DNA from: Demequina salsinemoris
GTDB taxonomy: Bacteria; Actinomycetota; Actinomycetes; Actinomycetales; Demequinaceae
Length of the DNA stretch: 64,000 bases
Direction of reading: 5' to 3'
Assembly: GCF_000974805.1 (NCBI RefSeq)
Contig: NZ_BBQZ01000005.1
Coordinates: forward strand, 186,001-250,000
A program made the translations under genes and the position numbers. Below the pieces are notes generated by a model. That model was not told the DNA's origin, made no database searches, and was given only the letters and a program-made list of their open reading frames with translations. The number at the start of each line of letters is the position of its first letter. Position 1 is the first letter of the stretch. Below are positions 37,664-56,383 of this stretch, piece after piece.

Positions 37664-37716
37664 CGAACGCCTCCAACCAGAGACTGACCCTTAGCCAACG
37701 ACGGAAAGGAAATCTC

Positions 37717-38709
37717 ATGATTCGTGGCAACTACGAGTCGGACGCAGGCAAGCACCAGGAGCTGCCCCACGAGGAGCTCGGCACGTTCTCGCACGTGCCG
37801 TTCGAGGAGTACAAGGAGAAGTGCAAGGACTTCCTCAGCATGAAGAGGGAGAACGGCATCCTCGAGGCCCGCCTTCACACGAATGGCGACTCGCTCATGT
37901 GGAACGCGCAGGCGCACCGCGGACTGCACTACTTCTTCGACTGGGCAGGCCGCGACCCCGAGAACGAGGTCATCATCCTCGGCGGCTCCGGTAAGGACCT
38001 GTTCAAGGGCATCGGTCGTCCGATGGAGGACGGCTCCGTGGGCTACGCGCACGAGTTCGACTCGGCGCCCGACAACGCGTGGCGCCTGTACGACTACCAG
38101 TACTACGACGGCACGAACGACATCGAGGGCCAGGTCTTCGACATCGAGGTCCCGACCATCGGCGTGTGGAACGGTGCCGCCTTCCACACTGACCTGGTGC
38201 TGTTCTCCGACATCACGCTGGCCACCGAGGACGCCTGGACCACGGAGATGCACTTCCGCGTCAACATGGTTCCCGGCGATGGCATCCAGATCGCCTGGCG
38301 CGAGCTCATGGGTCGCAAGCGCTTCGCGTACGCCGAGCTCACCGGTGAGGTCATCACCGCCCGCAAGGCGCTCGAGTACGGCATGGTCAACGAGATCTGC
38401 GACGACACCGAGGCCGCCTACGCCCGTGCCCAGGAGATCGCCGAGCTGATCATGCGCGCCGGCACCCGCCAGACCCGCCGCCTCACGGTGCAGCAGCTGC
38501 GCAAGCCGTGGAAGGAGGACATCGCCAACGAGGTCCGCAACGCCTTCGCCACGGAGATGTGGAACACCGCCACCGAGCACTCGCCGCACGAGGTGAGCTT
38601 CTGGGAGTGGGCGCACGAGGAGGCCGAGCTGGTCAAGGCCGCGGAGAAGGAGGGCAAGGTCATCCGTCCTCGCATCGACGGAGGCCAGGCAGAGACCCCC
38701 ATCAAGTAG
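37717..38709 (+). CDS. Crotonase-superfamily C-C hydrolase resembling 6-oxocamphor hydrolase
   Basis: This 330-residue protein has the crotonase fold, with its motif IEVPTIGVWNGAAFHTDLVLFSDI. Its closest pattern match from memory is 6-oxocamphor hydrolase, which opens a cyclic beta-diketone by retro-Claisen hydrolysis without CoA. The residues used there appear here in register: H67, H157, H179 and D188 (6-oxocamphor hydrolase H45, H122, H145 and D154), with MVPGDG around the aspartate. It is longer than 6-oxocamphor hydrolase at both ends. GGAAAGGAA precedes the ATG. It is followed by a strong terminator, then a LysR gene on the other strand. Annotation as enoyl-CoA hydratase would be the generic alternative. 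Confidence 0.8.
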   Translation: MIRGNYESDAGKHQELPHEELGTFSHVPFEEYKEKCKDFLSMKRENGILEARLHTNGDSLMWNAQAHRGLHYFFDWAGRDPENEVIILGGSGKDLFKGIGRPMEDGSVGYAHEFDSAPDNAWRLYDYQYYDGTNDIEGQVFDIEVPTIGVWNGAAFHTDLVLFSDITLATEDAWTTEMHFRVNMVPGDGIQIAWRELMGRKRFAYAELTGEVITARKALEYGMVNEICDDTEAAYARAQEIAELIMRAGTRQTRRLTVQQLRKPWKEDIANEVRNAFATEMWNTATEHSPHEVSFWEWAHEEAELVKAAEKEGKVIRPRIDGGQAETPIK

Positions 38710-38715
38710 GAGGAC

Positions 38716-38749
38716 GCGTCCGGGGCGTTGATGGCGACGCCCCGGACGC
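38716..38749 (+). terminator. Terminator after the C-C hydrolase gene
   Basis: GCGTCCGGGGCGT (38716-38728) and ACGCCCCGGACGC (38737-38749) form a perfect 13-bp stem with an 8-nt loop, 7 nt after the stop codon. No U-tract. Confidence 0.75.
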
Positions 38750-38872
38750 ACCCTCCGGGACGGCGGCCATGCCGTCCTCGGAAAGGCCTCCGGCGTCAGC
38801 GATGCCGGACGACCGCGAGCGTGCTGCGACAACGGAGTTGCACGACGAGGCCCGATTGCGACCCGCTCGCTG

Positions 38873-39751
38873 TCACTGCCCGATGAGGGCCAGGAAGTTC
38901 AGCAGCGTCTGCTGCTGGTTCTCACGCCGATAGATGGCCACCAGATCGAACTGGGTGTCCAGATCGGTGATCTCACACAGTTTGAAGCGCGATTTCTCGA
39001 AGGAGGTGCGGAAGATGCGTTCAGGCAGGAGTGTCACTCCCATCCCCAGGTCCACCCGGAGCACCGCGGTCGGCGTGTTCGCGACCGGCTCGATGCTGCC
39101 CTGCACGCCCGGCGTGTTCCGTGCCGCGAGCTTCAGCCTGCGCAGGAACGGGGGGTCGACGTGACTGGGCATGATCAGATGCTGGTCGAGCAGCTCCGCG
39201 ACGGTCACCTCGCCCTCGAGCGCGCACGGGTAGTCCTCACGCATGGCCGCGACGAAGCGATCGCTGCCGACCTTGACCTGCGCGATCTGGTCGTTGTCCG
39301 GCACCTCGAAGTCGAGGGTGAACGCGAGGTCGTAGATCCCGTGCAGGATGCTCTCGGAGAGCTCCTGGAACGGGATGTCGTCGACCCGCATCTTCACGCC
39401 AGGGTAGAGCGCGGCGTAGCGCTCGGCCAGGTCGGTGAAGGCCGTGCCGAAGTTGGTGACGGTCGCGATGCCGAGCTGTCCCGTGTGGCCCGACTTGGCG
39501 CCGTCGATCAGCCGGTACACGAGGTCGTGGTGGCGCAGCAGCAGGTCGCAGTTCTCGTAGAGGACGTTGCCCGCCTCGGTGAGGTGAACGTTGCGGGTGT
39601 CGCGGATGAACAGCTGGACGCCGAGCTCCTTCTCGAGGCTCGCGATCTGACGGCTCAGCGCCGACTGCCCGATGTAGAAGTGCTCGGCCGCCTTGCTGAA
39701 GTTTCGATACATCGCGACGAACTGAAAGTACTTCAGCGACTGCAGATCCAC
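38873..39751 (-). CDS. LysR-family transcriptional regulator
   Basis: This 292-residue regulator has the N-terminal LysR helix-turn-helix (MDLQSLKYFQFVAMYRNFSKAAEHFYIGQSALSRQIASLEKELG) and a periplasmic-binding-like effector domain from about residue 90. The GTG start has GAAGGAG upstream. It diverges from the butyrate kinase operon across 89 bp and probably activates it, and perhaps the upstream hydrolase, in response to a pathway intermediate. LysR proteins often autorepress. The effector cannot be read from sequence. Confidence 0.93.
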   Translation of the reverse strand: MDLQSLKYFQFVAMYRNFSKAAEHFYIGQSALSRQIASLEKELGVQLFIRDTRNVHLTEAGNVLYENCDLLLRHHDLVYRLIDGAKSGHTGQLGIATVTNFGTAFTDLAERYAALYPGVKMRVDDIPFQELSESILHGIYDLAFTLDFEVPDNDQIAQVKVGSDRFVAAMREDYPCALEGEVTVAELLDQHLIMPSHVDPPFLRRLKLAARNTPGVQGSIEPVANTPTAVLRVDLGMGVTLLPERIFRTSFEKSRFKLCEITDLDTQFDLVAIYRRENQQQTLLNFLALIGQ

Positions 39752-39840
39752 CCGTGCTCCTTCGCCCGGTCCGATTCACCCAACAGAACCAACACTCTAT
39801 GTCACCCCGACCAGCCCGAGACCCACGGAGGTCCCACGTC

Positions 39841-40965
39841 ATGAGCCGGATCCTGACCATCAACTGCGGTTCCACCTCGACCAAGGTCGCGTTCTTCGAG
39901 GACGACCGGGAGCTCGCCCGCATCTCCCTGGACGTCCCGCTCGACGCCTTGGCGACGATGCCCAAGGTGCTCGACCAGACGGACTACCGGACCACTCAGG
40001 TACGCGAGTTCCTGCACGCCAACGAGCTCGACGCGACCACGGCCGACATCGTCGTGGCGCGTGCGGGGACCATCCACCACGTCCCCCACGACGGCGCGTT
40101 CGCGGTTAACGAGCTGATGGTCGCGACCCTCAAGTACGCGCCTGCCGCACAGCACGCCTCCGCGCTGTCCGCGCTCATCGGCGTCGAGCTCGTGGAGGGC
40201 ACGGACATCCCCGTGATCATCTACGACCCCACGTGCGTGGACTCGGTCGATGAGATCGCGAAGGTCACGGGCGTGCCGGAGATCGAGAACAAGCCCGTCT
40301 ACCACCTGCTCAACCCCAAGGCCGCGGGTCGCAAGTACGCCGAGTCGATCGGCAAGGACTACACCGACCTCAACCTCGTGATCGCCCACCTCGGCGGCGG
40401 CATCACGATGGCGTTCCACGACCACGGCCGGGTGGCCGACTGGATCTACGACGACAGCGGCCCCATGTCCCCGCAGCGCGCCGGCGGGATCCCGAACCGC
40501 TTCCTGACCGACTTCATCTACCAGTCGGGATGGTCGCACCAGGAGATGCGGATGTACCTGGCGGGGAAGTCCGGCATCGCGGCGCACCTCGGCACCCAGG
40601 ACGTGCGTGAGGTCGAGATGGAGATCATCGCGGGCGACGAGCACGCGGAGCTGATCTACCGCGCGATGGCCTACGGCGTCGCGAAGGGCATCGGCCAGCT
40701 CGCCACCGTACGGGCCGGCGATGTCGACCAGATCATCCTCACCGGGGGCATCGCCCACAGCGAGCTGTTCACGGGCTGGGTGCGCGAGCTGGTCGAGTGG
40801 ATCGCCCCCGTCACGATCATCCCCGGCGAGCACGAGGCGGAGGCGCTCGCCGCCGGCGGGCTCCGCGTCCTGCGCGGCGAGGAGCCAGTCCACGACTACG
40901 ACGTGCTCCCCGCCGGCTACGGCTCTGTCGAAGAGATCATCGCCCGCCCCAGCTTCATGGCTTGA
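39841..40965 (+). CDS. buk: Butyrate kinase
   Basis: This 374-residue member of the acetate/butyrate kinase family transfers phosphate from an acyl phosphate to ADP. The family N-terminal signature is RILTINCGSTSTK, and AHLGGGITMAF is the glycine-rich phosphate loop. Length and sequence fit Buk rather than AckA. GGAGG lies about 9 nt before ATG 39841. With the phosphate butyryltransferase three genes downstream it forms an acyl-CoA to acyl phosphate to ATP route, so the island yields energy by substrate-level phosphorylation. The acyl chain may be acetyl, butyryl or another short acid. Confidence 0.93.
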   Translation: MSRILTINCGSTSTKVAFFEDDRELARISLDVPLDALATMPKVLDQTDYRTTQVREFLHANELDATTADIVVARAGTIHHVPHDGAFAVNELMVATLKYAPAAQHASALSALIGVELVEGTDIPVIIYDPTCVDSVDEIAKVTGVPEIENKPVYHLLNPKAAGRKYAESIGKDYTDLNLVIAHLGGGITMAFHDHGRVADWIYDDSGPMSPQRAGGIPNRFLTDFIYQSGWSHQEMRMYLAGKSGIAAHLGTQDVREVEMEIIAGDEHAELIYRAMAYGVAKGIGQLATVRAGDVDQIILTGGIAHSELFTGWVRELVEWIAPVTIIPGEHEAEALAAGGLRVLRGEEPVHDYDVLPAGYGSVEEIIARPSFMA

Positions 40966-40999
40966 GAAGCAGACAACGAAGTCAACGAAAGGAAGAATC

Positions 41000-41860
41000 A
41001 TGGAACTCAGCAACAAGGTCGTGCTGACCGCGGCGCTCACCGGAGCCGTCACCCCCAAGTCGATCAACGAGAACATCCCGCTGACGCCGGAGGAGATCTC
41101 CGAGGACGCCTACCGGGTGTGGCAGGCGGGCGCGTCCGTCGTGCACTTCCACATGCGCGACGATGAGGGCCTCGGGACGATGGACAAGGAGAAGTTCAAG
41201 CAGACCCTCGACCTGCTCAAGACGAACCACCCCGACTGCGACGTGGTCATCAACTGCACCACCGCGGGCGACCACCGCGCCACCGATGACGACCGCATGG
41301 CTCACCTCCCGTACGTGATGCCCGAGATCGCGTCGTACGACGCCGGCTCCATGAACTGGACTCCGGACGGCGTGTTCGAGAACAGCCCCCAGTTCCTCGA
41401 GCGGCTCGGGCTGAAGATGCAGGAGCTGAACATCAAGCCCGAGTTCGAGATCTTCGACGCGGGCATGGTCGGCAACGTCCTCTACTACGCCTCGAAGGAC
41501 ATCGTCGCGAAGCCGCTGCACTTCCAGTTCGTCCTCGGCGTCGGCGGCGGCATGCCCGCCACCGTCGAGAGCCTGTGCTACCTCAAGAGCCTCATCCCCG
41601 CGGACGCCACCTGGTCGGCCTTCGGCATCGGCCGCGCCCACCAGAAGATCATGTTCGCCGCGCTCGCGCTCGGCGGTCACATCCGCGTGGGCCTCGAGGA
41701 CAACGTCTACTACGCGCGCGGAGTCAAGGCCACGAACGTGTCGCTCGTCGAGCGTGCAGCCCGCGTGATCAAGGAGTTCGGCAAGGAGGTCGCGACCCCC
41801 GACGAGGCCCGCCAGATCCTGTCCCTCCCCGCGCGGAACCGGGAGCTTCAGGACGCATGA
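41000..41860 (+). CDS. BKACE-family beta-keto acid cleavage enzyme (DUF849)
   Basis: This 286-residue TIM-barrel enzyme has the BKACE motifs LTAALTGAVTPKS, VVHFHMRD with zinc ligands H49 and H51, and GGHIRVGLEDN. The family condenses a beta-keto acid with acetyl-CoA and releases acetoacetate plus a new acyl-CoA. Known substrates include 3-keto-5-aminohexanoate and triacetate. Lysine-fermentation partners are absent here, so a triacetate-like or other beta-keto acid from ring opening is more likely. AAAGGAAG precedes ATG 41000. Its stop overlaps the next gene (ATGA). Confidence 0.93.
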   Translation: MELSNKVVLTAALTGAVTPKSINENIPLTPEEISEDAYRVWQAGASVVHFHMRDDEGLGTMDKEKFKQTLDLLKTNHPDCDVVINCTTAGDHRATDDDRMAHLPYVMPEIASYDAGSMNWTPDGVFENSPQFLERLGLKMQELNIKPEFEIFDAGMVGNVLYYASKDIVAKPLHFQFVLGVGGGMPATVESLCYLKSLIPADATWSAFGIGRAHQKIMFAALALGGHIRVGLEDNVYYARGVKATNVSLVERAARVIKEFGKEVATPDEARQILSLPARNRELQDA

Positions 41861-42840
41861 CAACCGTCAACACCGTCCTCGGTCCGGTCGAGGCGGCAAG
41901 CCTCGGCCGGACCCTGTTCCACGAGCATCTGGTCTTCGGCTACGCCGGGCACGAGGGCGACAGGAGCATGTGGGACTACGACGAGGACGCGATCGTCGCC
42001 AAGGGCGTCGCTTCGCTGCGCTCCATCAAGGAGCAGGGCTTCAGCACGATCTTCGAGGCGACGCCGAACGACTCGGGGCGCGACCCGCTGCTCATGAAGC
42101 GCATCGCCGAGGAGACCGGCTTCAACGTGATCTGCGCGACCGGCTACTACAAGGAGCACCACGGCGGGTCCGCGTACTTCGATATGCGGCGCATCTTCAC
42201 CGACACCGTGGCCGAGATGGCGGACCTGTTCATCAAGGAGCTCACCGAGGGGATCCGCGACACCGGGGTCAAGGCCGGCGTCATGAAGGTCGCGACAGGG
42301 CACAGCGGCATCACCGACTACGAGCACGCGGTCATCAGCGCCGCGGCGCGCGCGCAGCAGGCCACCGGCGCGCCGATCATCACCCACACCGAGGACGGCA
42401 CCGCAGCGCCGGAGCAGGCGCGCGCGCTGATCGACGCGGGGGCCGACCCGTCCAAGGTCGTGGTGGGTCACATGTGCGGCAACGCCAAGAACCTCGACTA
42501 CCAGCTCGCCGTGCTCGAGACGGGCGTCGGGATCGGCTTCGATCGCACCGGTGGCAACAGGCTGTTCAACGACATCACGGACGACGACCGCATCGACATG
42601 GCCGTCACCCTCGCCGAGCGCGGCTACCTGAACCGGATCTTCTGGTCGCAGGACAGCATCGCGAATTGGCTCGGCAGGAGCTGGGACGGCTTCTATGCGC
42701 TGCCCGGAGCGAAGGACTGGAAGATCACGCGCATCGGCGACTACATCGTGCCTGGTCTCCTGGGCCGTGGCCTGACCGAGGCGGACATCGACCAGCTGCT
42801 CGTGAACAACATCCGCAGCCTCTGGGAGGGGGACATCTGA
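41857..42840 (+). CDS. Phosphotriesterase-family metallohydrolase (lactonase-like)
   Basis: This 327-residue amidohydrolase-superfamily protein keeps every metal ligand of the phosphotriesterase group: H22 and H24 (FHEHL), bridging K144 (VMKVAT), H177 (ITHTED), H205 (VGHMCG) and D266 (WSQDS). Most natural members are lactonases. In this island it could open a lactone or cyclic intermediate before or after the BKACE step. Its ATG overlaps the BKACE stop by 4 nt and its stop overlaps the Ptb start by 1 nt, so the three proteins are made in fixed ratio. It lacks a signal peptide. Confidence 0.9.
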   Translation: MTTVNTVLGPVEAASLGRTLFHEHLVFGYAGHEGDRSMWDYDEDAIVAKGVASLRSIKEQGFSTIFEATPNDSGRDPLLMKRIAEETGFNVICATGYYKEHHGGSAYFDMRRIFTDTVAEMADLFIKELTEGIRDTGVKAGVMKVATGHSGITDYEHAVISAAARAQQATGAPIITHTEDGTAAPEQARALIDAGADPSKVVVGHMCGNAKNLDYQLAVLETGVGIGFDRTGGNRLFNDITDDDRIDMAVTLAERGYLNRIFWSQDSIANWLGRSWDGFYALPGAKDWKITRIGDYIVPGLLGRGLTEADIDQLLVNNIRSLWEGDI

Positions 42841-43760
42841 TGTATGCGACGTATGAAGAGCTGGCGGCCGCGTTCCCGCTGCAGGGGCGCCCCCAGCGGT
42901 GCGCGGTGGCCGGCGCGGCCGACGAGCATGCGCTGGACGCTGTGATGCGCGCGGCGCGCGAGGGCTACCTCACGCCCGTCCTCATCGGCCCGCGTTCCGA
43001 GGTCGAAACGGTGATCGGGGGCCTCGAGATCGTCGAGCCGTACGTGCTGCACGACTGCCCGGAGGGTCAGAACCCGGCCGAGATCGCCGTACGACTGGTG
43101 CGCGACGGCGAGGCCGACTTCATCCTCAAGGGCCACATGCAGACCTCCGACCTGCTCCGCCCGATCCTCAACAAGCAGACGGGGCTCAACGATCGTGGCT
43201 TCGTCACGCACTTCGGGCTCATGGAGATCCACGGCTATCACAAGCTGCTCGCGATGAGCGATGCGGCGGTGATCCCGCACCCGTCGCTCGCCGACAAGGC
43301 GAAGATCATCGAGGTGTGCACGGAGGCCCTGCGGGCCCTCGGGATCGAGCGTCCCGTCGTCGCCGCGCTGTGCGCGTCGGAGACCGTCAGCCCGAAGATC
43401 CCCGAGAGCCTCGACGCGGAGGAGCTCTCCGCGATGGGCGCTCGCGGACGCTTCGGCGACTCGATCGTCGTCGGTCCGATCTCGTTCGACCTGGCCACGA
43501 GCCGTGAGGCGGCGGAGATCAAGGGGTACGACTCGCCCTATGCGGGGGACGTCGACATGCTCCTGGTGCCCGAGATGGTCACGGGCAACGTGATGAGCAA
43601 GATCTGGAACTCCGACGACCGCAACACCCTCGCGGGCTGCCTGCTGGGAGCGAGGGTGCCGATCGCCCTGACGTCCCGCAGCGCCTCGATGAAGGAGAAG
43701 CTCACCTCGCTGCTGCTGTGCAGCCTGCTGAGCTCGGTCACCACCAGGACAGGAGCATAG
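42840..43760 (+). CDS. ptb: Phosphate butyryltransferase
   Basis: This 306-residue PTA/PTB-family enzyme exchanges CoA for phosphate on butyryl-CoA or a similar acyl-CoA. Family motifs include DFILKGHMQTSDLLRPILN, DAAVIPHPSLADKAKII, and MLLVPEMVTGNVMSKIW. The start ATG shares its A with the TGA of the metallohydrolase gene (TGATG). Paired with butyrate kinase it produces one ATP per acyl-CoA. A thiolase follows after 2 nt. Confidence 0.93.
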   Translation: MYATYEELAAAFPLQGRPQRCAVAGAADEHALDAVMRAAREGYLTPVLIGPRSEVETVIGGLEIVEPYVLHDCPEGQNPAEIAVRLVRDGEADFILKGHMQTSDLLRPILNKQTGLNDRGFVTHFGLMEIHGYHKLLAMSDAAVIPHPSLADKAKIIEVCTEALRALGIERPVVAALCASETVSPKIPESLDAEELSAMGARGRFGDSIVVGPISFDLATSREAAEIKGYDSPYAGDVDMLLVPEMVTGNVMSKIWNSDDRNTLAGCLLGARVPIALTSRSASMKEKLTSLLLCSLLSSVTTRTGA

Positions 43761-43762
43761 GA

Positions 43763-44953
43763 ATGAGTGAACAGCGCGACAACGACGTCGTGATCGTGGC
43801 GGCCGCGCGCACGCCGAACGGCAGGCTCAAGGGAGGCCTCGCCTCGGTGAGCGCCGTCGAGCTGGGAGCGACGGCCATCCGAGCCGCGCTCGAACGCGGA
43901 GACGTACCCGCCGACTCGGTCGACCACGTGATCATGGGCCACGTCCTTCAGGCCGGGCTCGGGCAGTGCACCGCACGCCAGGCGGCAGTCGCCGCAGGAA
44001 TCGGCTGGGACGTGCCCGCGGTGAACGTGAGCAAGGTATGCCTGTCGGGCCTCACCGCCATCATCGAGGGCGCTCGGCGGATCGCGCTGGGGGAGTCCTC
44101 CGTGGTGGTCGCAGGGGGCATGGAGTCGATGACGAACGCGCCCCACCTGCTCATGGGCTCGCGATTCGGCTACGGCTACGGCGACACCAAGATCGTGGAC
44201 TCGATGGCGAACGACGGGCTGTCCGACGCGTGGTCCCACGAGGCGATGGGGCTCGATACCGAGACCAGGACCGCGGAGTACCCCGCGAGCCGCGATGAGC
44301 AGGACGCGGTGGCCGCGAGGTCGCACCGGCTCGCCGCGGCGGCGTGGGAGGAGGGCCGTTTCGACGCCGAGGTGGTGCCGGTGACGGTCAAGCAGCGCAA
44401 GGGGGACATCGTCGTGGACCGCGACGAGGGCATCCGGCCCGAGTCGACCGTCGAGACGCTCGGCCGGCTCCGTCCCGCCTTCACTCCCGAGGGCACCATC
44501 ACCGCGGGCAACGCGTCGTCGATCAACGACGGCGGCGCCGCGGTGGTGCTGACCAGTCGCGCCCGCGCCGCGAGCGAGGGCTGGCCCGTGCTCGCGACCG
44601 TGCGGTCGTGGGCGCAGGTGGCGGGTCCGTCGCCCGCGCTGGCTCCCCAGCCGGGAAACGCGATCCTCGCCGCCCTGGACAAGGAGGGGTGGACCGCGGA
44701 CGACCTGGACCTGCTGGAGATCAACGAGGCCTTCGCCGCGGTCGCCGTGCACGCGGTGCGACAGCTCGGGGTCCCCATGGACAAGGTCAACGTCCATGGC
44801 GGAGCCATCGCCATGGGCCACCCGATCGGTCAGTCAGGGGCGCGCCTGATCGTCCACCTCGCGCATGAGCTGAACCGTCGCGGTTCGGGCCGTGCCGCTG
44901 CCGCGCTGTGCGGAGGCACGGGGCAGGGCGACGCGCTGCTGCTCGAGGCCTGA
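43763..44953 (+). CDS. Thiolase (acetyl-CoA acetyltransferase type)
   Basis: This 396-residue thiolase has nucleophile C93 in VSKVCLSGL, the histidine in HGGAIAMGHPIGQSG, and the second cysteine in ALCGGTGQGDA. This fits degradative thiolases that split acetoacetyl-CoA to two acetyl-CoA. AGGAGCATAGGA precedes the ATG. Its place just before the CoA-transferase genes supports use of acetoacetyl-CoA made from the acetoacetate released by BKACE. Confidence 0.93.
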   Translation: MSEQRDNDVVIVAAARTPNGRLKGGLASVSAVELGATAIRAALERGDVPADSVDHVIMGHVLQAGLGQCTARQAAVAAGIGWDVPAVNVSKVCLSGLTAIIEGARRIALGESSVVVAGGMESMTNAPHLLMGSRFGYGYGDTKIVDSMANDGLSDAWSHEAMGLDTETRTAEYPASRDEQDAVAARSHRLAAAAWEEGRFDAEVVPVTVKQRKGDIVVDRDEGIRPESTVETLGRLRPAFTPEGTITAGNASSINDGGAAVVLTSRARAASEGWPVLATVRSWAQVAGPSPALAPQPGNAILAALDKEGWTADDLDLLEINEAFAAVAVHAVRQLGVPMDKVNVHGGAIAMGHPIGQSGARLIVHLAHELNRRGSGRAAAALCGGTGQGDALLLEA

Positions 44954-44985
44954 GTCGAGCTCGATCCAACAAAGGAGATGGACCG

Positions 44986-45648
44986 ATGGCAAGAGACAAG
45001 ATGATCGCCCTCGCGGAGGCCGTGGCCAAGGTCGAGGACGGCATGACCGTCATGATCGGCGGCTTCATGGGGTGCGGCAACGCGCACGTGCTCATCGACG
45101 GGCTGATCGAGGCGGGTACGAAGGACCTGACGCTGATCTGCAACGACGGCGCGCTCCCCGGATACGGCGTGGGCAAGCTCGTCGAGCAGCACCGGCTGCG
45201 CAAGCTGATCGCGTCCCACGTGGGGCTCAACCCCGAGGTCGGCCGGCAGATGAACGCCGGCGAGCTCGAGGTCGAGCTGGTGCCACAGGGCACCTTCGCG
45301 GAGAGGATCCGGTCCGGGGGCACGGGCCTCGGCGGTGTGCTCACCCCGACCGGGATCGGCACGATCGTCGCCGAGGGCAAGCCGGTCGTCGAGGTCGACG
45401 GCAAGGCGTTCCTCCTCGAGAAGCCGCTGCGTGCCGACATCGCGCTGCTCAGCGGGTACAAGGTCGACCCGTTCGGGAACATCTGGTACCGCGGCGACAC
45501 GCGCACCTTCCAGCCGGTGATGGCGATGGCCGCCGACACCGTCATCGTCGAGGCGGACCAGCTCATCCCGCTCGGGGCGATCCCCCCGGAGGACGTCGTC
45601 ACCTCGGGGATCCTCGTCGACCACATCGTCAAGGGAGGCGACTGGTGA
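44986..45648 (+). CDS. 3-oxoacid CoA-transferase, subunit A
   Basis: This 220-residue alpha subunit of a class I CoA-transferase begins KMIALAEAVAKVEDGMTVMIGGFMGCG, which contains the oxyanion-loop glycine motif. It transfers CoA from an acyl-CoA to acetoacetate together with subunit B. AAAGGAG lies 7 nt before ATG 44986. It overlaps the subunit B start by 4 nt (GTGA). The set AtoDA-like transferase plus thiolase disposes of acetoacetate. Confidence 0.94.
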   Translation: MARDKMIALAEAVAKVEDGMTVMIGGFMGCGNAHVLIDGLIEAGTKDLTLICNDGALPGYGVGKLVEQHRLRKLIASHVGLNPEVGRQMNAGELEVELVPQGTFAERIRSGGTGLGGVLTPTGIGTIVAEGKPVVEVDGKAFLLEKPLRADIALLSGYKVDPFGNIWYRGDTRTFQPVMAMAADTVIVEADQLIPLGAIPPEDVVTSGILVDHIVKGGDW

Positions 45649-47950: not shown

Positions 47951-47963
47951 CCCCATCACTGTC

Positions 47964-47998
47964 GACTGGCCGGCGGAATTCCGGGCCGCCGGCCAGTC
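47964..47998 (+). terminator. Intercistronic hairpin after the MFS gene
   Basis: GACTGGCCGGCGG (47964-47976) and CCGCCGGCCAGTC (47986-47998) form a perfect 13-bp stem with a 9-nt loop. It lies 14 nt after the MFS stop and 34 nt before the next start, so it may act as a partial terminator or a 3'-end stabiliser. Confidence 0.75.
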
Positions 47999-48032
47999 GT
48001 CCTACCAGCTATTCAAGGAAGAAGAGATTCAA

Positions 48033-49184: not shown

Positions 49185-49193
49185 GAGGCAACC

Positions 49194-51332
49194 ATGACCG
49201 CCACACTGAACCCGATCACCAGCTCGGCGACCAACCCGAAGTACAGCCACCTCGCGCAGCCGATCAAGATCGGCAACGTGACCGTGAAGAACCGCTTCAT
49301 GAAGAACGGCACGGGATTCTTCTGGGACGACCCCGAGACCGGCAGCTATGTCAACGAGAAGTACCTCGACTACTTCGATGAGCTGGCGAAGGGCGGCGCA
49401 GGTCTCATCGCGACGGCCATGGGGCCGCTGACCCGTGACCTCGACGCGAAGATGCCGGGCTACCGCATCACCGATGATCGCTACATCCCCGGCTGGAAGG
49501 AGTGGGCCGACACCGTGCACAAGTACGGCGCGGCTGCCTTCGGCCAGCTGTTCCACCTCGGCCCGATGGCGCCGCTCCTGGTGAACGTGCCGCCGACCTC
49601 CTCGGCCTCGGCGATCCCGCGCGAGGAGTCGCCTCGCCCCGGCTTCGGCGACTTCCGCGCCCACACCGTGGAGGAGATCGAGGACATCATCCAGATGTTC
49701 ATCGAGGCGGCCGAGCGCCAGAAGAAGGCGGGACTCGACGGCACGGAGCTCAACGTCGCGTGCAACCACTTCGTCAACAACTTCCTGTCCCGTGCCTGGA
49801 ACCGTCGCGACGACGAGTGGGGCTCGCAGACCATGGAGAACCGCACCCGCGTCGCGGTGAGGATCATCCGCGGCATCAAGGAGCGCAACGGCGAGGACTG
49901 GCCGGTCATCGTGCTGATGAACGCGATCGAGGTGGACCTCAAGGACGGCATCACGATCGATGAGAGCAAGGAGTTCGCGAAGATCTTCGTCGATGCGGGT
50001 GCCGATGCGCTCGAGGTCCGCGGCGAGTACTACACGTGGACGCAGGATGTGGAGCGCCGCGAGAGCCTGCACTTCCCGGACATGTACCTGTACCCGCACC
50101 GCACGGGCCCGATCGACCCGTACGTGGACGCCTCCCGGAGGGGCAAGGGGGCGAACATCCCCATGGCCGCCGAGATCAAGAAGATCGTCGACGTGCCCGT
50201 CATCACCGTCGGCCGCCTGGACTGGGACATCGCGGAGAAGGCGATCGGCGAGGGCAAGTTCGACATCGCGAGCATGAACCGCAGGATGCTCGCCGACCCG
50301 GGCCTTCCCAACAAGGTCCTCGCGGGCGATGTCAGGGACATCAACCCGTGCGCGGGGTGCATGACCTGCTTCGACTCGATCGAGCACTTCGGCGCGGTCA
50401 AGTGCCGAGTCAACGCCTCGCTCGGACGCGAGCGCGAGTACGCGATCACGCCGGCTCCGGTGAAGAAGAAGGTGCTCGTCATCGGCGGAGGTCCCTCCGG
50501 CATGGAGGCCGCCAGGGTCGCCGCGCTTCGCGGGCACGAGGTGGTGCTGTACGACAAGCTCCACAAGCTCGGTGGCTCCCTGCCCGTCGCGGCGCTCGTC
50601 AAGGGCCCCCGCGAGGACATCGCCGGGATGATCCACTACCTGGACCGTCAGGTGCACCAAGCGGGCGTCACGGTCCACCTGGGCAAGACGGTGACCAAGG
50701 CCATCCTCGACAAGGAGCGGCCCGACGAGATCATCGTCGCCGCGGGTGGCACTCACGAGATCCCGGACATCCCTGGCATCGACGGCCGCAACGTGATGAC
50801 CGGCCAGGACCTGCACAAGCTCGCGAAGGCGATGCTGCAGTTCGTGCCGATCGAGGCTGCTCGCACGATGCACAACCTGCCCGTGGCCCGCAACGTGATG
50901 ATCGGCAACCACGTGGTCGTCATGGGCGGACAGCTGCACGGCTGCCAGACAGCGGAGTACCTCCTCAGCCTCGGCAAGAAGGTCACGATCGTCCACCGGG
51001 GCTCGAAGGAGGACCTGGGCGAGGGGCTGCTCGAGGTGTTCATGAAGCCCTACCTTCTCTACTGGCTCGAGGAGCAGGGCGTCGAGTTCATCACCGACGC
51101 GACGTTCGAGAAGGTCACCAAGGAGGGGCTCCAGATCTCCACTCCCGAGGGTGGGCGCCGCCTCATCGAGGCGGACACGGTCATGACCGCGCTCGCGCTT
51201 CAGCCGAACCCTGAGGTCGTGAGGCTGGCCGAGAGCACGGGCGCGACGGTGCATGTCGTCGGCGATGCCGGCACCCCGGCACTGATGGTCGACGCGGTGG
51301 CCTCCGGCTCCGCCGTCGGTCACGCGATCTAG
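49194..51332 (+). CDS. Old Yellow Enzyme/4Fe-4S NAD(P)H-dependent reductase (2,4-dienoyl-CoA reductase type)
   Basis: This 712-residue flavoprotein has an FMN-binding OYE barrel (about 20-375). A 4Fe-4S cluster motif follows, C386-x2-C389-x2-C392-x11-C404, and then an FAD/NAD(P)-binding half (KKVLVIGGGPSGMEAARVAALRGHEV). The family reduces C=C bonds conjugated to a carbonyl or thioester; relatives include 2,4-dienoyl-CoA reductase, bile-acid BaiCD and isoflavone reductases of gut bacteria. At the position where many have a catalytic HGYLINQFL, this one has NHFVNNFL. It lies between a thiolase and an SDR. It could reduce a ring enone or an enoyl-CoA. Confidence 0.92.
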   Translation: MTATLNPITSSATNPKYSHLAQPIKIGNVTVKNRFMKNGTGFFWDDPETGSYVNEKYLDYFDELAKGGAGLIATAMGPLTRDLDAKMPGYRITDDRYIPGWKEWADTVHKYGAAAFGQLFHLGPMAPLLVNVPPTSSASAIPREESPRPGFGDFRAHTVEEIEDIIQMFIEAAERQKKAGLDGTELNVACNHFVNNFLSRAWNRRDDEWGSQTMENRTRVAVRIIRGIKERNGEDWPVIVLMNAIEVDLKDGITIDESKEFAKIFVDAGADALEVRGEYYTWTQDVERRESLHFPDMYLYPHRTGPIDPYVDASRRGKGANIPMAAEIKKIVDVPVITVGRLDWDIAEKAIGEGKFDIASMNRRMLADPGLPNKVLAGDVRDINPCAGCMTCFDSIEHFGAVKCRVNASLGREREYAITPAPVKKKVLVIGGGPSGMEAARVAALRGHEVVLYDKLHKLGGSLPVAALVKGPREDIAGMIHYLDRQVHQAGVTVHLGKTVTKAILDKERPDEIIVAAGGTHEIPDIPGIDGRNVMTGQDLHKLAKAMLQFVPIEAARTMHNLPVARNVMIGNHVVVMGGQLHGCQTAEYLLSLGKKVTIVHRGSKEDLGEGLLEVFMKPYLLYWLEEQGVEFITDATFEKVTKEGLQISTPEGGRRLIEADTVMTALALQPNPEVVRLAESTGATVHVVGDAGTPALMVDAVASGSAVGHAI

Positions 51333-51342
51333 GGGGGACGCG

Positions 51343-52104
51343 ATGGGTGCTCTCGAAGGCAAGATCGCGATCGTCACCGGCGCCAACTCGGGGATCGGCA
51401 GGGCGACGGCGCTGCTGTTCGCCTCGGAGGGTGCGACCGTCGTCGTCTCAGGACGACGACAGGAGCGGAACGCCGAGGTCGTCGCACAGATCGAGGAGGC
51501 CGGGGGCACCGCCCTCGCGGTCACCTCGGACGTGTCCTCGCCCGAGGACTGTCGCGAGCTCGTCGATGCCACCGTGGCCGCGTACGGGCGGATCGACGTG
51601 CTCGTCAACAACGCGGGGATCGCGGACAAGCACATGCCGATCGACGACTGCACCGAGGAGTGGTTCGACCACGTGACGAAGGTGGACCAGTACTCGGTCT
51701 ACTACATGGCCAAGTACGCGCTCGAGCACATGGCCCCGGCCGGCGTCGGCTCGATCGTCAACGTCTCGTCGATCGGTGCAGGCGGCGTGGCAGGGATCTC
51801 CTACAGCGGCGCCAAGGCGGCGGTGAACGCGATGACGAAGAACATCGCGATCCGCTATGCGAGGACGGGCGTCCGCTGCAATGCCGTGGCTCCAGGGCCA
51901 ACCCCCACGCCGCTCAACGCTCCCGAGGTCGCGAGCACGTTCCATGCGGAGTTCGCGGGAATGTGCGCCGAGCACCTCGACCTCACCGTGCCCGAAGCCA
52001 CCGCCGAGGATCAGGCGCAGGCGATCCTCTGGTTCGCGTCGGACGCGTCGAGGGCGGTGACCGGTCAGATCCTCTATGTGGATCACGGCACCAGCCTGTA
52101 TTGA
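51343..52104 (+). CDS. Short-chain dehydrogenase/reductase of the island
   Basis: This 253-residue classical SDR has cofactor motif TGANSGIGRATA, SGRRQER after strand 2 (basic, favouring NADP(H)), NNAG, catalytic S in VNVSSIGAG, and YSGAK. GGGGGGA precedes the ATG. It follows the OYE reductase by 10 nt and ends the unit at a strong hairpin. A role as ketone or ring reductase, or as hydroxy-acid dehydrogenase, fits the island. The substrate is not determined. Confidence 0.93.
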   Translation: MGALEGKIAIVTGANSGIGRATALLFASEGATVVVSGRRQERNAEVVAQIEEAGGTALAVTSDVSSPEDCRELVDATVAAYGRIDVLVNNAGIADKHMPIDDCTEEWFDHVTKVDQYSVYYMAKYALEHMAPAGVGSIVNVSSIGAGGVAGISYSGAKAAVNAMTKNIAIRYARTGVRCNAVAPGPTPTPLNAPEVASTFHAEFAGMCAEHLDLTVPEATAEDQAQAILWFASDASRAVTGQILYVDHGTSLY

Positions 52105-52114
52105 CCCCGCCTCC

Positions 52115-52147
52115 GCGGCACGTCTCAAGGGGCATGAGGCGTGCCGC
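52115..52147 (+). terminator. Terminator after the SDR gene
   Basis: GCGGCACG (52115-52122) with CGTGCCGC (52140-52147), extended inward by a T-G pair and CTCA/TGAG, gives a 13-pair stem with a 7-nt loop. No U-tract. Confidence 0.75.
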
Positions 52148-52188
52148 ATGTTGCATAAATGTCCCAGGTAGATGGCGTGTCGGCGGCT

Positions 52189-52255
52189 CCCGAGGCTAGC
52201 GTGGAAACGTACTCGGGGAACGCCGAAGGCGTCCTCGGCCGCAGTGTCGCGGCCG
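52189..52255 (+). promoter_or_regulatory. Promoter and structured leader of the enoate reductase gene
   Basis: TAGCGT (52197-52202) is a -10 candidate enclosed by the dyad CCCGAG-n17-CTCGGG (52189-52217). The leader contains a 7-bp hairpin, CGGCCGC with GCGGCCG (52236-52255). This points to separate control of the reductase and ApbE genes. Confidence 0.4.
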
Positions 52256-52307
52256 GGAACGCGACGGCGTCTCGACCACAATGAAGTGCTCGAACGACAG
52301 GACTCCC

Positions 52308-55300
52308 ATGGCTCTCTCACTCAACGATCCGCTTCAGCTCCGCTGTGGCGTCGAACTGCCCAACCGCGTCGTGATGGCGCCGATGACCACGCTCAACGCG
52401 GGCCACGACGGCATCTGCAGCGACGAGCTGCCCGACTACTACGGCCTGCGAGCCGGCGGCCCTGGCGCCATCATCGTCGAGTGCGCGCACGTGAAGCCGA
52501 ACGGCCGGGTGTTCCCCGGCGGGATCGGACTGGACGTCGACGAGCAGATCCCCAGCCTCGCCAAGGTCGCCGCCGCGATCAAGGAGCAGGGTTCGAAGGC
52601 GATCCTCCAGATCTTCCACGGCGGCAGGATGTGCTCGCCCGGCCAGATCAACGGCGAGCAGCCGGTCGCGCCGAGCCCCGTCGCCGCACCGCGACCGGAG
52701 GCGGTCATCCCTCGCGAGCTCAGCGTCGAGGAGATCGATGAGCTGATCGAGGCATTCGCCGCCACGACCAGACGTGCCGTCGCTGCGGGCTTCGATGGCG
52801 TGGAGATCCACGGCGCCAACACCTACCTGGTGCAGCAGTTCTTCTCGCCTCATTCCAACCGTCGAGACGACGAGTGGGGTGGCAGCCGCGAGGCGCGCGC
52901 CCGCTTCCCGCTGGCCGTCGTGAATGCTGTCAAGGAGGCCGCGCCCGCCGAGGGCTTCGTCATCGGCTACCGGTTCAGCCCCGAGGAGATCGAGGTGCCC
53001 GGCATCCGGTATGACGACACCCTGTACCTTCTGGAGCAGATCGCGGCCGTGGGCGTCGACTACTTCCACTACTCCACGAAGAAGCTGATGCAGACCTCGA
53101 TCGTCGAGACGTCGGACAAGGAGACGCTCCTTGCGAAGCTCCTGGCGTCCAGGTCCGAGATCCTCGCCGAGGTGCCCGTCGTCGGCGTGGGTGGCGTGAT
53201 GGAGCTCGAGCAGGTGGAGGACGCGCTCGCTGCTGGTTTCTCGGCGGTGGCCGTCGGCCGAGAGCTGATCGTCGAGCCGCGATGGGTGCAGAAGGTGACG
53301 TCGGGTGAGCCGATCGCGACGTTCATCCGCAAGGAGGACTGCATGATGCTCGCGGTCCCGATGTCGCTGTGGAACTTCGTCGAGGCGGACATGGCGGCGG
53401 AGGAGCGCCGCGTCAACGCCGCGCGTGCGAAGGACCGGGTGTACATCCCGAACGTCTACATCGAGTCGTTCGACGATCTTCATGGAGTCATCACGGTCAA
53501 GGTCACCGTGAACACCGAGGGCATCGAGGACATCCAGATCATCGGAGCCGTCGAGTCGGAGGAGAAGTTCAGCGAGGAGGACGTGTGGAAGGTCCTTCCC
53601 GAGCGCATGATCGCGCTCAACTCCACCTCGGTCGACATCATCACGGGTGCCACGATGTCGAGCAAGCGGCTGCTGGCCGCCGTCGACCGGGCCCTCGCGA
53701 AGGCCTCGGGCGACTCGGATCCGATGATCATCTCCGAGCACCCCGAGGAGCTGCCGCCGCCGCCGTGGCTGGGTTCTGAGCCGACGGTCCCCGACGACGA
53801 GATCGAGACGGTCATCGAGACCGACGTGATCGTCATCGGCGCGGGTGTCGCCGGTGTGGCCGCGACCCGGTCGGCCGCGGAGCAGGGCGCGAAGGTCGTC
53901 GTCATCGAGAAGGCGAGCGAGCCGCAGTGCCGCAGCGGCGAGTACGCGGTCATCAACGGCACCCTGCAGGAGAAGTGGGGTCGCGCCACGATGGATCCCG
54001 ACGAGATCGCGGATCGGCTGATGAAGGAGTGCTCGTACCGCGTCAAGCGGTCGATCATCAGCCGCTGGGCTCACCACTGCGCCGAGGTGTTCGACTGGTG
54101 GATCGCGGCCAAGCCGGACCTCTACATCGCCCCCACGAACCGCGCGGACATCCCCGACGAGCACGCGGCGGCGTTCATGGTGCCGCTGTATCACCCGCTC
54201 CCGAAGCACTACGACTACAAGGTGGAGAACTTCCCGACCTATCCGACGTCGGTCGAGTTCCTCCCCAACCAGGCCCCGGTGTTCCAGGCGAACATGGCCA
54301 AGGCCGTGGCCGAGGGCGACGTCACGCCGTTCTATGGCCACTTCGCTGTCAAGCTGCTCAAGGAGGACGGCCGCATCGTCGGCGTCATCGCGAGGAACGC
54401 GAGGACGGGGCGTTACCTCAAGGCCATGGCCAGCAAGGGCGTCGTCCTCGCGAGCGGCGACTACGGCAGCAACTCCGACATGGTGCGCTACTACGCGCCG
54501 GAGATCATCGAGAACGGCCTGCCCGCGGTGTGGCTGAACCGCGACGTCGAGGGCAAGCCCACCAACACCGGTGACGGACTCAAGCTCGGCGCCTGGGCGG
54601 GGGCCAAGATCCAGCAGAACCACGCGCCGATGGTGCACCACATGGGCGGTCCGTCCGGTACGGGCGGCGTCATGGGCAACACTCCGTGGCTGTTCCTGAA
54701 CGCTCGTGGCGAGCGCTTCATGAACGAGAGCGTGCCCGGCCAGCAGCTCGAGAACCAGATCGAGATGCAGCCGAGCAAGATCGCGTTCCAGATCTGGGAC
54801 GAGCGCTGGCCGGAGGAGGTCGAGTACATGCCGGCCAGCCACGGCACGATCTGCTACTACTCCGAGGAGAAGCCGAGGAACAACGACTGGGACCGCAGCT
54901 ACAGGTCCCGCGCGGACCTCGACAAGGCGGTCGAGACCAACCAGGTGCAGAAGGCCGACACGCTCGAGGAGCTCTACGAGAAGCTCGGGCTGCCGGCCGA
55001 GGAGGCGGCGGCCTCCGTCGCGCGCTACAACGAGCTCGCCGCGAAGGGCTACGACGACGACTTCGGCAAGCCCGCGAAGCGCATGTTCGCGCTCGAGAAC
55101 GCGCCGTACTACGGAGTGCGGATGGGGCTCACCGGCATGCTCGTCTGCGCCGGAGGCCTCGAGAGCGACGAGGAGTCCCGGACGTACGACGGCGCACGCA
55201 ACGTCATCCCCGGCCTCTACGTCGCGGGCAACATGCAGGGCAACCGCTGGGCGGTCGAGTACCCGATCTGCGTCAAGGGCCTCAGCCACTCGATGGCGAT

Positions 55301-55346
55301 GTTCTACGGTTACGTCGCGGGGAAGAACTGCGTGAACGGAGTCTGA
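52308..55346 (+). CDS. Three-domain flavoprotein: OYE-FMN_bind-fumarate-reductase-type enoate reductase
   Basis: This 1012-residue cytosolic protein combines three domains. The first is an OYE-like FMN barrel (about 1-350; [39 protein letters not shown]). The second is an FMN_bind domain (about 385-465) with the flavinylation motif ITGATMSS, where T449 should carry covalent FMN. The third is an FAD domain of fumarate reductase type (about 500-1010; [14 protein letters not shown], and the C-terminal [14 protein letters not shown]). This architecture is known for soluble NADH-dependent fumarate, acrylate and (hydroxy)cinnamate reductases of fermenting bacteria. There is no secretion signal. AGGA precedes ATG 52308. 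An ApbE gene follows directly, as required for FMN attachment. Confidence 0.93.
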   Translation: [1012 protein letters not shown]

Positions 55347-56311
55347 GCATCGACGCGAAGAGCGAGCGCACCGTCGCCACGTTCCCTCTGATGGGGACGC
55401 TGGCGACGTTGTGCTTCCCGGGCCCGGCGGATCCGACCGTGACCGAGGCGGTCGCGCGGACCCTGCGCGGCCTCGAGCGTCGTCTCACCGTCAACGGGCC
55501 GCCGTCGGCACGCGCCGCCTCGCAGGTCGAGGCGATCAACGCCGCGGCCGGTCGCGCCGCGGTCGAGGTGGACCCGGAGGTGTACGGCCTGGTCCGCACC
55601 GCGGTGATCGCGAGCCGCGAGCACCGCGACAGCTTCAACGCGCTGATCGGCCCCGTCGTCAAGGCCTGGGGGATCGGCTTCGACGGCGCGCACGTGCCGG
55701 ACGACGCCGCGATCGCCGCGCTGCTGTCGCTGACGGACCCCGAGGAAGTCGAGATGGACGATGCTCGGTCCACCGTTCGCCTGGGGCGGCCGGGGATGAG
55801 GCTCGACCTGGGCGCGATCGCCAAGGGGTACGCGGCCGACAGGGCGGCCGACGTCTGCCGCGAGCACGGTGTCGAGGGCGGGCTGATCGACCTCGGCGGC
55901 AACGTGGTCGCGATGGGGCGGTCCGACGTCGGGGTGCCGTGGCAGGTGGGGATCCAGTCGCCGTTCGACGTCAGGGGAGAGGTGCTCGGCACGGTCTCCG
56001 CGCAGGACGAGTCGGTGGTCACCTCGGGGGTCTACGAGCGGGTGCTCGAGGTCGGCGGCAAGCGCTATCACCACATGATCGACCCGCTCACGGGGCGCCC
56101 GTTCCAGACGGACCTCGCGAGCGTCACCGTCGTCGCCGCGTCCTCCACGAAGGCGGACCTGTGGGCGACCATCGCGCAGGCGGGCGGCCTCGACGAGGGC
56201 TTCCGGCGGGTGTCGGAGGCCTACGGCGTCGAGGCCGTGTTCATCACCCACGACGGCAGCATCGTCGCGACGCCGGGGCTCGAGGCACGCCTCACGCTCC
56301 GATCCGCGTAG
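55343..56311 (+). CDS. apbE: ApbE-family FAD:protein FMN transferase
   Basis: This protein of about 322 residues should attach FMN to a threonine in FMN_bind domains. Motifs are FPLMGTLATL, MRLDLGAIAKGYAADRA, LIDLGGNVVAMG and YHHMIDPLTGRPF. The start is uncertain: no ATG, GTG or TTG lies in frame between the reductase's stop and ATG 55391, yet the residues before that ATG (SIDAKSERTVATFPL) look like the expected N-terminus. A CTG at 55343 overlapping the reductase stop (CTGA) is proposed; ATG 55391 would give 306 residues. There is no lipoprotein signal, so the enzyme is cytosolic and matches its neighbour. Confidence 0.88.
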   Translation: MSIDAKSERTVATFPLMGTLATLCFPGPADPTVTEAVARTLRGLERRLTVNGPPSARAASQVEAINAAAGRAAVEVDPEVYGLVRTAVIASREHRDSFNALIGPVVKAWGIGFDGAHVPDDAAIAALLSLTDPEEVEMDDARSTVRLGRPGMRLDLGAIAKGYAADRAADVCREHGVEGGLIDLGGNVVAMGRSDVGVPWQVGIQSPFDVRGEVLGTVSAQDESVVTSGVYERVLEVGGKRYHHMIDPLTGRPFQTDLASVTVVAASSTKADLWATIAQAGGLDEGFRRVSEAYGVEAVFITHDGSIVATPGLEARLTLRSA

Positions 56312-56383
56312 GCCCGACCTTCCGGGTCGCCCACCGTCGCCCTCGCGCGGTTTCGCGAACAAGCGGGTCACCCGCCGTCGGCG

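Follow-up and report, generated by a model that had tools for sequence, protein, structure and literature searches.

A fifteen-gene insertion in Demequina salsinemoris appears to encode oxygen-independent ring opening and has a core that recurs across bacterial phyla

The stretch of DNA considered here (64,000 nucleotides of contig NZ_BBQZ01000005.1 of the actinobacterium Demequina salsinemoris; hereafter the window) contains a block of fifteen genes, the island, that is one insertion relative to congeners and that, judging from its gene families, appears to open a ring compound with water rather than oxygen and then to ferment the pieces for energy. Its first gene encodes a 6-oxocamphor-hydrolase-like C-C (retro-Claisen) hydrolase, here called RCH, and a comparable core set of genes is found in distantly related bacteria, for which horizontal spread is the best reading. 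The interpretation favored here, with somewhat better than even confidence, is that horizontal transfer brought in an oxygen-independent catabolic unit in which a widely shared lower pathway is fed by variable upper modules, the latter best read as often comprising flavin-dependent C=C reductases. An earlier note on this stretch, which had proposed an oxygen-independent catabolic island paralleling the anaerobic phloroglucinol route in an actinobacterium, is partly supported overall.

A single insertion, rare among relatives

The gene order of the island is RCH, LysR (convergent, and the sole gene on the minus strand), Buk, BKACE, PTE, Ptb, Thl1, CtfA, CtfB, MFS, Thl2, an OYE/4Fe-4S reductase, SDR, an OYE-FMN_bind-FAD_binding_2 fusion reductase, and ApbE (Table 1). 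In the closest congener (L122; L numbers designate loci), homology to the window ends at position 37494 and restarts at 56380, two points that lie ~375 bp apart there, whereas the same interval in the window (37495-56379) measures ~18.9 kb; the limits first drawn around the fifteen genes are therefore almost exactly those of the insertion. The flanking helicase gene is present in 40 of the 44 genomes of the genus, its own genome counted. Ten congeners were read beside the helicase, and the NYN gene of the other flank fell inside the stretch read in four of them (L122, L123, L124, and L125). No island-gene match lay between NYN and the helicase in these four, the spacing being ~184 bp in L124, ~5.8 kb in L123, and ~2.4 kb in L125, and among the other six, in which NYN was outside the stretch read, the sole island-type match was a 32% identical SDR ~10 kb away (L131). 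RCH itself was absent (E 1e-60) from all 46 other genomes of the host family and from each of 395 further genomes sampled across the host phylum. The GC content of the block is 0.66-0.70 versus 0.68-0.73 in the flanks. Other DNA occupies the gap in two further congeners (L123:8013-13858 and L125:3305-5669), and the NYN-helicase gap may therefore be an insertion hot spot.

RCH as a predicted retro-Claisen ring opener

Sequence comparison with solved structures places RCH nearest to 6-oxocamphor hydrolase (1o8u; E 1.7e-32) and to the beta-diketone hydrolase 2j5g. A predicted model of RCH (mean pLDDT 78.6, pTM 0.83, with low local confidence at residues 180-186, adjoining D188) was used in a fold search, in which 6-oxocamphor hydrolase and the Anabaena beta-diketone hydrolase came out on top (TM score by target length 0.86-0.88) and ordinary crotonases ranked after these two with lower TM scores. 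RCH aligned with 6-oxocamphor hydrolase across the crotonase domain, and the His/His/His/Asp set of that enzyme (which we take to be His45, His122, His145, and Asp154, with His122 named by entry 1szo) is kept as H67, H157, H179, and D188; H157 aligns with the position altered in 1szo, the His122Ala mutant. The four residues are invariant in 35 of 35 rows of the RCH alignment, which comprises the window and 34 copies drawn from 33 loci (L004, L031, L034, and L038 contributed none), and also in 29 of 29 sequences including L031 and a 60% tier. The conserved catalytic residues and the predicted fold support the crotonase-type ring opener proposed in the earlier note, with a retro-Claisen reaction as its predicted chemistry. 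The known setting of 6-oxocamphor hydrolase is oxygen-dependent camphor breakdown. No crotonase-type ring opener for this chemistry was found in the literature searched, which comprised listed titles and abstract openings, with subscription papers mostly outside.

BKACE with a probable substrate of its own

According to one source (PMC10470551), Glu14 of the lysine-fermentation BKACE (KCE) binds the 5-amino group, and triacetate acetoacetate-lyase (TAL) carries Trp at that place. The island BKACE, the only copy in the host genome, has Val17 where KCE has Glu14 and TAL has Trp16, such that the TAL-diagnostic Trp is absent. Of 28 RCH-linked BKACE rows, the window included, 26 have Val at this place and 2 have Met, and all have Asp91 and Arg93, at positions occupied by Ala and Gly in KCE and by Gly and Gly in the probable TAL. 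This count left out the BKACE of Chloroflexi locus L023 (only 35% identical, signature absent), the broken copy of L038, and partial matches such as that of L024. Asp91 and Arg93 lie in a loop, 4 and 6 places past the residue aligned with KCE Ser82, presumably a substrate contact. In all, the RCH-linked BKACEs differ from both KCE and the probable TAL at 28 positions that are conserved in 90% or more of the 28 rows, one of them opposite a gap in KCE. The Val/Met substitution and the invariant Asp91/Arg93 pair suggest that these enzymes probably have a substrate of their own. The best NCBIfam model for the island BKACE is that of the lysine-fermentation enzyme, below cut-off (304.6 versus 382 bits); a role in lysine fermentation was rejected since KCE Glu14 is replaced. 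NCBIfam NF053538 (dioxohexanoate BKACE) had matches in 15 of 392 sampled phylum genomes, 2 of these over cut-off.

A core that recurs across phyla

A scan of one genome per species returned 37 RCH loci (65-90% identity) in 35 genomes, as L021 and L030 share one contig and L010 and L013 one assembly. The three loci nearest to the window are actinobacterial. The actinobacterial setting emphasized in the earlier note describes the host and these relatives; RCH itself is not confined there and is also encoded in Proteobacteria, Spirochaetes, and Chloroflexi. The records include Actinotalea, Propionibacteriaceae, Cellulomonas, Tolumonas, Klebsiella, Enterobacter, Brenneria, Acerihabitans, Sodalis, Kosakonia, Cohaesibacter, Breoghania, Telmatospirillum, Rhodoplanes, Pasteurellaceae genera, Spirochaetes, Chloroflexi, Deltaproteobacteria, and others. 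We take most of these hosts to be facultative or strict anaerobes, to which Streptomyces sp. YIM S03343 would be an exception. A protein search reported 726 RCH relatives; among the 120 matches listed, 87 have at least 69% identity and the rest, an Oscillospiraceae bacterium included, 57-63%. Where a source gives these proteins a name, it is enoyl-CoA hydratase. Relatives on plasmids (168 records) are all below 60% identity, and none was found in viral contigs.

Neighbors were counted within 10 kb of RCH (less at contig ends) from de novo gene calls, and the counts are lower bounds, RCH itself having been recovered by these calls in 33 of the 37 loci. Thiolase was present in at least 28 loci, BKACE in at least 27, CtfA in at least 25, CtfB in at least 24, another LysR in at least 21, MFS in at least 17, SDR in at least 15, and an outer-membrane PF13557 protein in at least 10. 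BKACE lies on the RCH strand in 28 of the 30 loci with a tblastn match and directly downstream (<600 bp) in 17 of them. RCH and BKACE distance matrices are correlated (r 0.69, reached by 0 of 2000 permutations; relatedness of hosts is not controlled in this value). In UBA6122, the window order from RCH to ApbE is repeated at 56-88% identity, without the SDR, and Cellulomonas and Actinotalea have the same genes partly rearranged. LysR relatives (58-66% identical) occur near RCH and Buk in L002, L003, and L145, and MFS relatives (44-58%) in L002-L004. The proposal that the genes form one catabolic unit is supported by the single insertion and by a core that recurs across phyla more than chance would allow; the check on conserved neighborhoods, meant to detect unrelated units, found that this core stays together.

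The Cellulomonas metagenome-assembled genome (MAG) has a second RCH-like gene (L145:6733-7515, 34% identical) beside a BKACE cluster, and the same record also has an 87% identical RCH (L004). In Enterobacter sp. EA-1 (L038, ~10001-16500), RCH and its neighbors match in pieces, with 65% identity for the best RCH segment, and this copy looks broken or poorly sequenced. In L011 (9115-14073), a molybdopterin protein and a 4Fe-4S protein lie downstream of RCH and of a second RCH-like crotonase (34%); the former is nearest to acetylene hydratase (2e7z, 391 bits), and pyrogallol transhydroxylase was not among the 43 matches listed for it.

Variable candidate upper modules

Motifs were found in both proteins that had been put forward as flavin-dependent C=C reductases. 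The OYE/4Fe-4S protein carries CX2CX2CX11C (aa 386-404; 50349-50405), and its best PDB match is NCR (6qkg), presumably naphthoyl-CoA reductase, which dearomatises its substrate. This protein occurs in all four actinobacterial hosts examined (72% identity in UBA6122; 65 and 63% in Cellulomonas and Actinotalea) and was not found in the other 13 RCH genomes searched. The fusion reductase carries DIITGAT (aa 452-458; 53634-53654), of the D..[ST]GA[ST] type that we take to be the ApbE flavinylation motif, and the island thus holds both an FMN_bind domain with this motif and an ApbE gene. Among the 16 RCH genomes searched, full-length relatives of the fusion protein were found only in UBA6122 (81%) and Lonepinella koalarum (54%), in the latter within an operon away from RCH (L149:8757-15363) that also has MFS, a gene that is porin-like by resemblance, and ApbE. 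The SDR is 75% identical in both Cellulomonas and Actinotalea, and a different FAD_binding_2 reductase with Fe-S/NADH-type partners replaces the fusion protein in these genera.

In 15 of the 37 loci, an FAD_binding_2 reductase is encoded no more than 10 kb from RCH. Electrons appear to be supplied in three ways: by the OYE fusion with ApbE (window and UBA6122), by a soluble flavoprotein with Fe-S/NADH-type partners (Actinotalea, Cellulomonas, and one Spirochaete), and by gammaproteobacterial FMN_bind/FAD proteins whose N-termini are, by eye, signal-peptide-like. Near this third form, three loci encode a Fer4_11 protein, two NrfD, and four OprB. Two reductases were scanned against NCBIfam, and their best model was vinyl phenol reductase, at about half its cut-off.

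HpaB-family proteins are encoded in five Spirochaete loci and in the Chloroflexi locus L023. Five complete Spirochaete copies (L016:11231-12808, L021:11022-12542, L024:11147-12667 and 15436-17007, and L027:18976-20553) have CxxxC at 98 and HRHSYTGC (Hx6C), and in a sixth copy, truncated where its contig ends (L030), the second motif alone is visible. Because this spacing is that of what we take to be the Fe-S ligand positions of 4-hydroxybutyryl-CoA dehydratase, the five complete copies look like dehydratases rather than oxygenases. Counter to this, the three copies scanned match only HpaB monooxygenase NCBIfam models, at scores far under cut-off (108-206 versus 480 bits for the best). In a Hyphomicrobiales MAG (L034:3067-9778), a complete TmoABCDEF-type set with a XylR_N sigma-54 activator lies directly upstream of RCH and SDR. 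At one locus, this is the most direct sign that the module may handle products of aromatic rings. It follows that the lower pathway may be oxygen-independent while its feed need not be, and the oxygen independence claimed in the earlier note need hold for the former only; in the island itself, a Pfam scan of the 15 genes finds no oxygenase family, in agreement with that note.

Proposed pathway and points that weigh against it

In the proposed pathway, the MFS transporter would import a ring compound, probably an oxygenated aromatic or a derivative of one. A flavin reductase (OYE/4Fe-4S and/or the fusion protein, probably flavinylated by ApbE) would remove a C=C bond, and RCH would open the resulting cyclic beta-diketone with water. 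Ring opening would yield a beta-keto acid, either at once or, in hosts that have the SDR, once this enzyme has oxidized the product, and BKACE would split the acid with acetyl-CoA to acetoacetate and an acyl-CoA. CtfAB would activate the acetoacetate and the two thiolases would yield acetyl-CoA, while Ptb and Buk would carry an acyl-CoA through an acyl phosphate with gain of ATP. The PTE-family protein, whose nearest solved relatives (3f4c, 3orw, and DR0930) we take to be of the phosphotriesterase-like lactonase group, would probably reopen a lactone formed spontaneously by the keto acid. The single insertion, the conserved core, the catalytic residues, and the reductase motifs are computational results; we infer the order of these steps, the direction of the SDR, and the lactonase role. 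The host genome has four 3HCDH_N matches, the best at 25.7 bits (cut-off 22) and covering only positions 4-50 of 180; with only such partial matches, it seems to be without the usual enzyme making butyryl-CoA from acetoacetyl-CoA, and Ptb-Buk would therefore act on another acyl-CoA, perhaps one derived from the substrate.

Several observations weigh against this interpretation. Contig ends and the stated E-value limits restrict the absence counts among them. RCH and SDR distances correlate weakly (r 0.175 in 17 rows, reached by 102 of 2000 permutations), the value rising to 0.417 (0 of 2000) once the 30% identical copy of L008 is dropped, in both cases with host relatedness uncontrolled. Median identity to the window is only 46-47% for Thl1, Thl2, CtfA, and CtfB versus 77% for RCH and 63% for BKACE, such that replacement of the former genes is possible. 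Outside actinobacterial loci, PTE was not seen, and Buk and Ptb were represented only by relatives of 33-36% identity in L027. An SDR ortholog was not found in 11 of 19 RCH genomes (E 1e-50; L009 was outside the whole-genome searches), and FAD_binding_2 reductases were not seen in 22 of the 37 loci, several of which are cut by contig ends and one of which is UBA6122, whose reductase lies beyond its flank. The SDR and reductase steps are therefore not obligatory or are done by other genes.

Alternative readings

A bolder reading, which is conceivable although we would not expect it to hold, is that RCH marks a central ring-degradation route not described before, in which a 1,3,5-oxygenated ring would be converted straight to the beta-keto acid consumed by BKACE and in which one mobile gene set would end several upper pathways (reductive, dehydrative, and monooxygenase-fed) on a common intermediate other than that of the phloroglucinol route. 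In hosts without SDR and TfD orthologs, the ring could possibly be aromatic and, without being reduced first, react via its keto tautomer.

We consider it unlikely that the island encodes a phloroglucinol pathway built from other parts, with a flavin reductase in place of PGR, RCH in place of DPGC, the SDR in place of TfD, and BKACE acting as TAL. The anaerobic phloroglucinol route of Clostridium scatologenes comprises PGR, DPGC, TfD, and TAL (PMC10470551), and it shares its logic and end with the island, in which the thiolase, CoA-transferase, and acyl kinase end of such a cluster is present; to this extent, the parallel drawn in the earlier note from BKACE, CoA-transferase, thiolase, Ptb, and Buk stands. 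On chemical grounds, moreover, a retro-Claisen product would be a beta-keto acid only if a six-membered ring is oxygenated at positions 1, 3, and 5. Phloroglucinol as the substrate itself is disfavored by a second, canonical-looking cluster in Brenneria izbisi (L154:4683-12675; G404:C45, ~66.7-74.7 kb), which, given the equal length of 298067 bp, is apparently on the same contig as the RCH cluster. It reads MFS-CtfA-CtfB-SDR-3HCDH-cyclase-thiolase-BKACE, its BKACE has ACTGAW at the diagnostic place, that is, Trp, and by resemblance (families and this Trp) it looks like the canonical phloroglucinol set. Since B. izbisi holds both clusters, phloroglucinol itself is probably not the substrate of the RCH route, and the Val or Met of the RCH-linked BKACEs where TAL has Trp points the same way.

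The remaining enzymes bear on the same alternative. No DPGC-family Mn2+ cyclase (PF04199) was found by Pfam among the 15 island genes, and the two PF04199 matches over cut-off in the host genome (80.6 and 72.3 bits) lie on other contigs (C13 and C20). The B. izbisi cyclase had no NCBIfam model match at E 1e-20; at E 1e-40, it had no match in the host genome and was matched in 1 of 20 RCH genomes, its own. RCH could therefore still replace the cyclase in the other 19, for which reason this alternative is retained. No TfD-type 3HCDH family was found by Pfam in the island, and matches to the TfD family are partial only in the host, Necropsobacter, Lonepinella, Tolumonas, Acerihabitans, and Sodalis. 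PGR is reported to be an SDR with a TR(S/N) motif (PMC10470551). The window SDR is without this motif, reading SGRR at its place, and shares 32% identity with the PGR-like SDR of L154. The L154 protein itself reads TGRT, and the motif may therefore not be universal. The phloretin-hydrolase family (PF18089), sought as a lead to a reference phloroglucinol cluster, occurs in 23 of 392 sampled phylum genomes, with a BKACE match in 0 of the 14 regions read (three from one genome), and a PF18089 query of the RCH loci returned nothing convincing (best E 0.21).

It is more doubtful still that RCH opens a terpenoid (camphor-like) or other non-aromatic cyclic diketone, with the reductases acting on its enone. 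The nearest characterized relative of RCH is 6-oxocamphor hydrolase, and enone reduction is the typical reaction of OYE proteins; however, RCH is only 30-31% identical to that hydrolase, the XylR_N/Tmo neighbor points to aromatics at one locus, and a bicyclic terpenoid diketone would, on chemical grounds, give no beta-keto acid for BKACE. That the island merely juxtaposes unrelated units (lysine or acetoacetate fermentation and detoxifying reductases) is largely refuted and very improbable, in spite of the best NCBIfam model of BKACE and the accessory nature of the reductases in other hosts, by a BKACE without the Glu that binds the 5-amino group, by the lack of any further lysine-fermentation family among the 15 genes (Pfam), and by one insertion with a conserved core order that in UBA6122 extends to the reductases.

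Gene content of the island

All fifteen genes are reading frames of the families assigned to them at the outset (Pfam). Small corrections concern the starts of PTE (41857) and Ptb (42840), each inside the end of the gene before it, and the uncertain start of ApbE, whose frame is read from 55346, a position without ATG, GTG, or TTG. Overlaps of 4 bp (BKACE/PTE and CtfA/CtfB) and 1 bp (PTE/Ptb) resemble those of an operon. Buk scores 376.7 bits against an NCBIfam equivalog cut-off of 289.1, and Ptb is under the cut-off of every NCBIfam model listed. Promoter and terminator scans gave no more matches than in shuffles and did not pick up the inverted repeat of Table 1, and ARAGORN found no tRNA in the 64-kb window. 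Left of the island (window 32747-36728), two frames look by eye like a permease and an agmatinase/arginase, and a regulator of the AraC family resembles FeaR (111 bits versus a cut-off of 199).

Table 1. Features of the island and its genes (window coordinates).
Feature	Position	Strand	Basis or remark
Whole inserted block (island)	37495..56379	.	Limits from congener comparison
RCH, 6-oxocamphor-hydrolase-like C-C (retro-Claisen) hydrolase, 330 aa	37717..38709	+	Pfam ECH_1, PDB alignment, predicted fold
RCH catalytic-set codons	H67 from 37915, H157 from 38185, H179 from 38251, D188 from 38278		
Inverted repeat, 20 bp, 90%, 8-nt loop, RCH-LysR gap	38709..38756	.	Terminator-like in shape only
LysR-family regulator	38873..39751	-	Pfam LysR
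Buk, butyrate-kinase-type acyl kinase	39841..40965	+	Pfam Acetate_kinase; TIGR02707 above cut-off
BKACE	41000..41860	+	Pfam BKACE
PTE-family hydrolase	41857..42840	+	Pfam PTE; nearest solved relatives 3f4c, 3orw, DR0930 entries
Ptb, phosphate acyltransferase	42840..43760	+	Pfam PTA_PTB; below NCBIfam cut-offs
Thl1, acetoacetyl-CoA-type thiolase	43763..44953	+	Pfam thiolase, NCBIfam
CtfA, 3-oxoacid CoA-transferase subunit A	44986..45648	+	Pfam CoA_trans; TIGR02429 above cut-off
CtfB, 3-oxoacid CoA-transferase subunit B	45645..46313	+	Pfam CoA_trans; TIGR02428 above cut-off, scanned from 45657
MFS transporter, candidate substrate importer	46631..47950	+	Pfam MFS_1
Thl2, 3-ketoacyl-CoA thiolase	48033..49184	+	Pfam and NCBIfam
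OYE/4Fe-4S/FAD reductase	49194..51332	+	Pfam Oxidored_FMN and Pyr_redox_2
SDR dehydrogenase	51343..52104	+	Pfam SDR
OYE-FMN_bind-FAD_binding_2 fusion reductase	52281..55346	+	Pfam Oxidored_FMN, FMN_bind, and FAD_binding_2
ApbE, FMN transferase, start codon uncertain	55346..56311	+	Pfam ApbE

Implications and comparison with known systems

Oxygen-free opening of plant-derived rings governs the recycling of polyphenol and wood carbon in guts, bark, peat, and sediments, and a ring-opening gene found at 65-90% identity across phyla, usually beside the same carbon-splitting genes, would represent a common unrecognized route. RCH together with a BKACE bearing Val17/Asp91/Arg93 is offered as a marker, its hosts are a defined group, and B. 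izbisi, as one strain apparently holding both this route and the known one, would allow their direct comparison.

Compared with the phloroglucinol route (PMC10470551), the island would share ring reduction, hydrolytic retro-Claisen opening, and BKACE cleavage with acetyl-CoA, and it also has a CoA-transferase, thiolase, acyl kinase, MFS transporter, and regulator. It differs in its ring opener, a crotonase-fold relative of 6-oxocamphor hydrolase rather than the Mn2+ cyclase DPGC, in having no full 3HCDH-type TfD, an SDR unlike PGR, and a BKACE with Val rather than Trp, and in adding flavin C=C reductases and a PTE-family hydrolase. RCH is like 6-oxocamphor hydrolase (1o8u/1szo) and the Anabaena beta-diketone hydrolase (2j5g/2j5s) in fold and aligned catalytic residues, but it is 30-33% identical to these and, at 330 aa versus 257-263 aa, has an extra C-terminal region. 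KCE belongs to the same BKACE family (40% identity, with the HxH and Glu-Asp positions common to both) and departs from the RCH-linked enzymes in its Glu14, where these have Val or Met, and in its Ala and Gly, where these have Asp91 and Arg93. The fusion reductase, for its part, is like OYE-FMN_bind-FAD_binding_2 proteins that come with ApbE, which we take to be of the cinnamate/acrylate reductase type, both in domain order and in its flavinylation-type motif.

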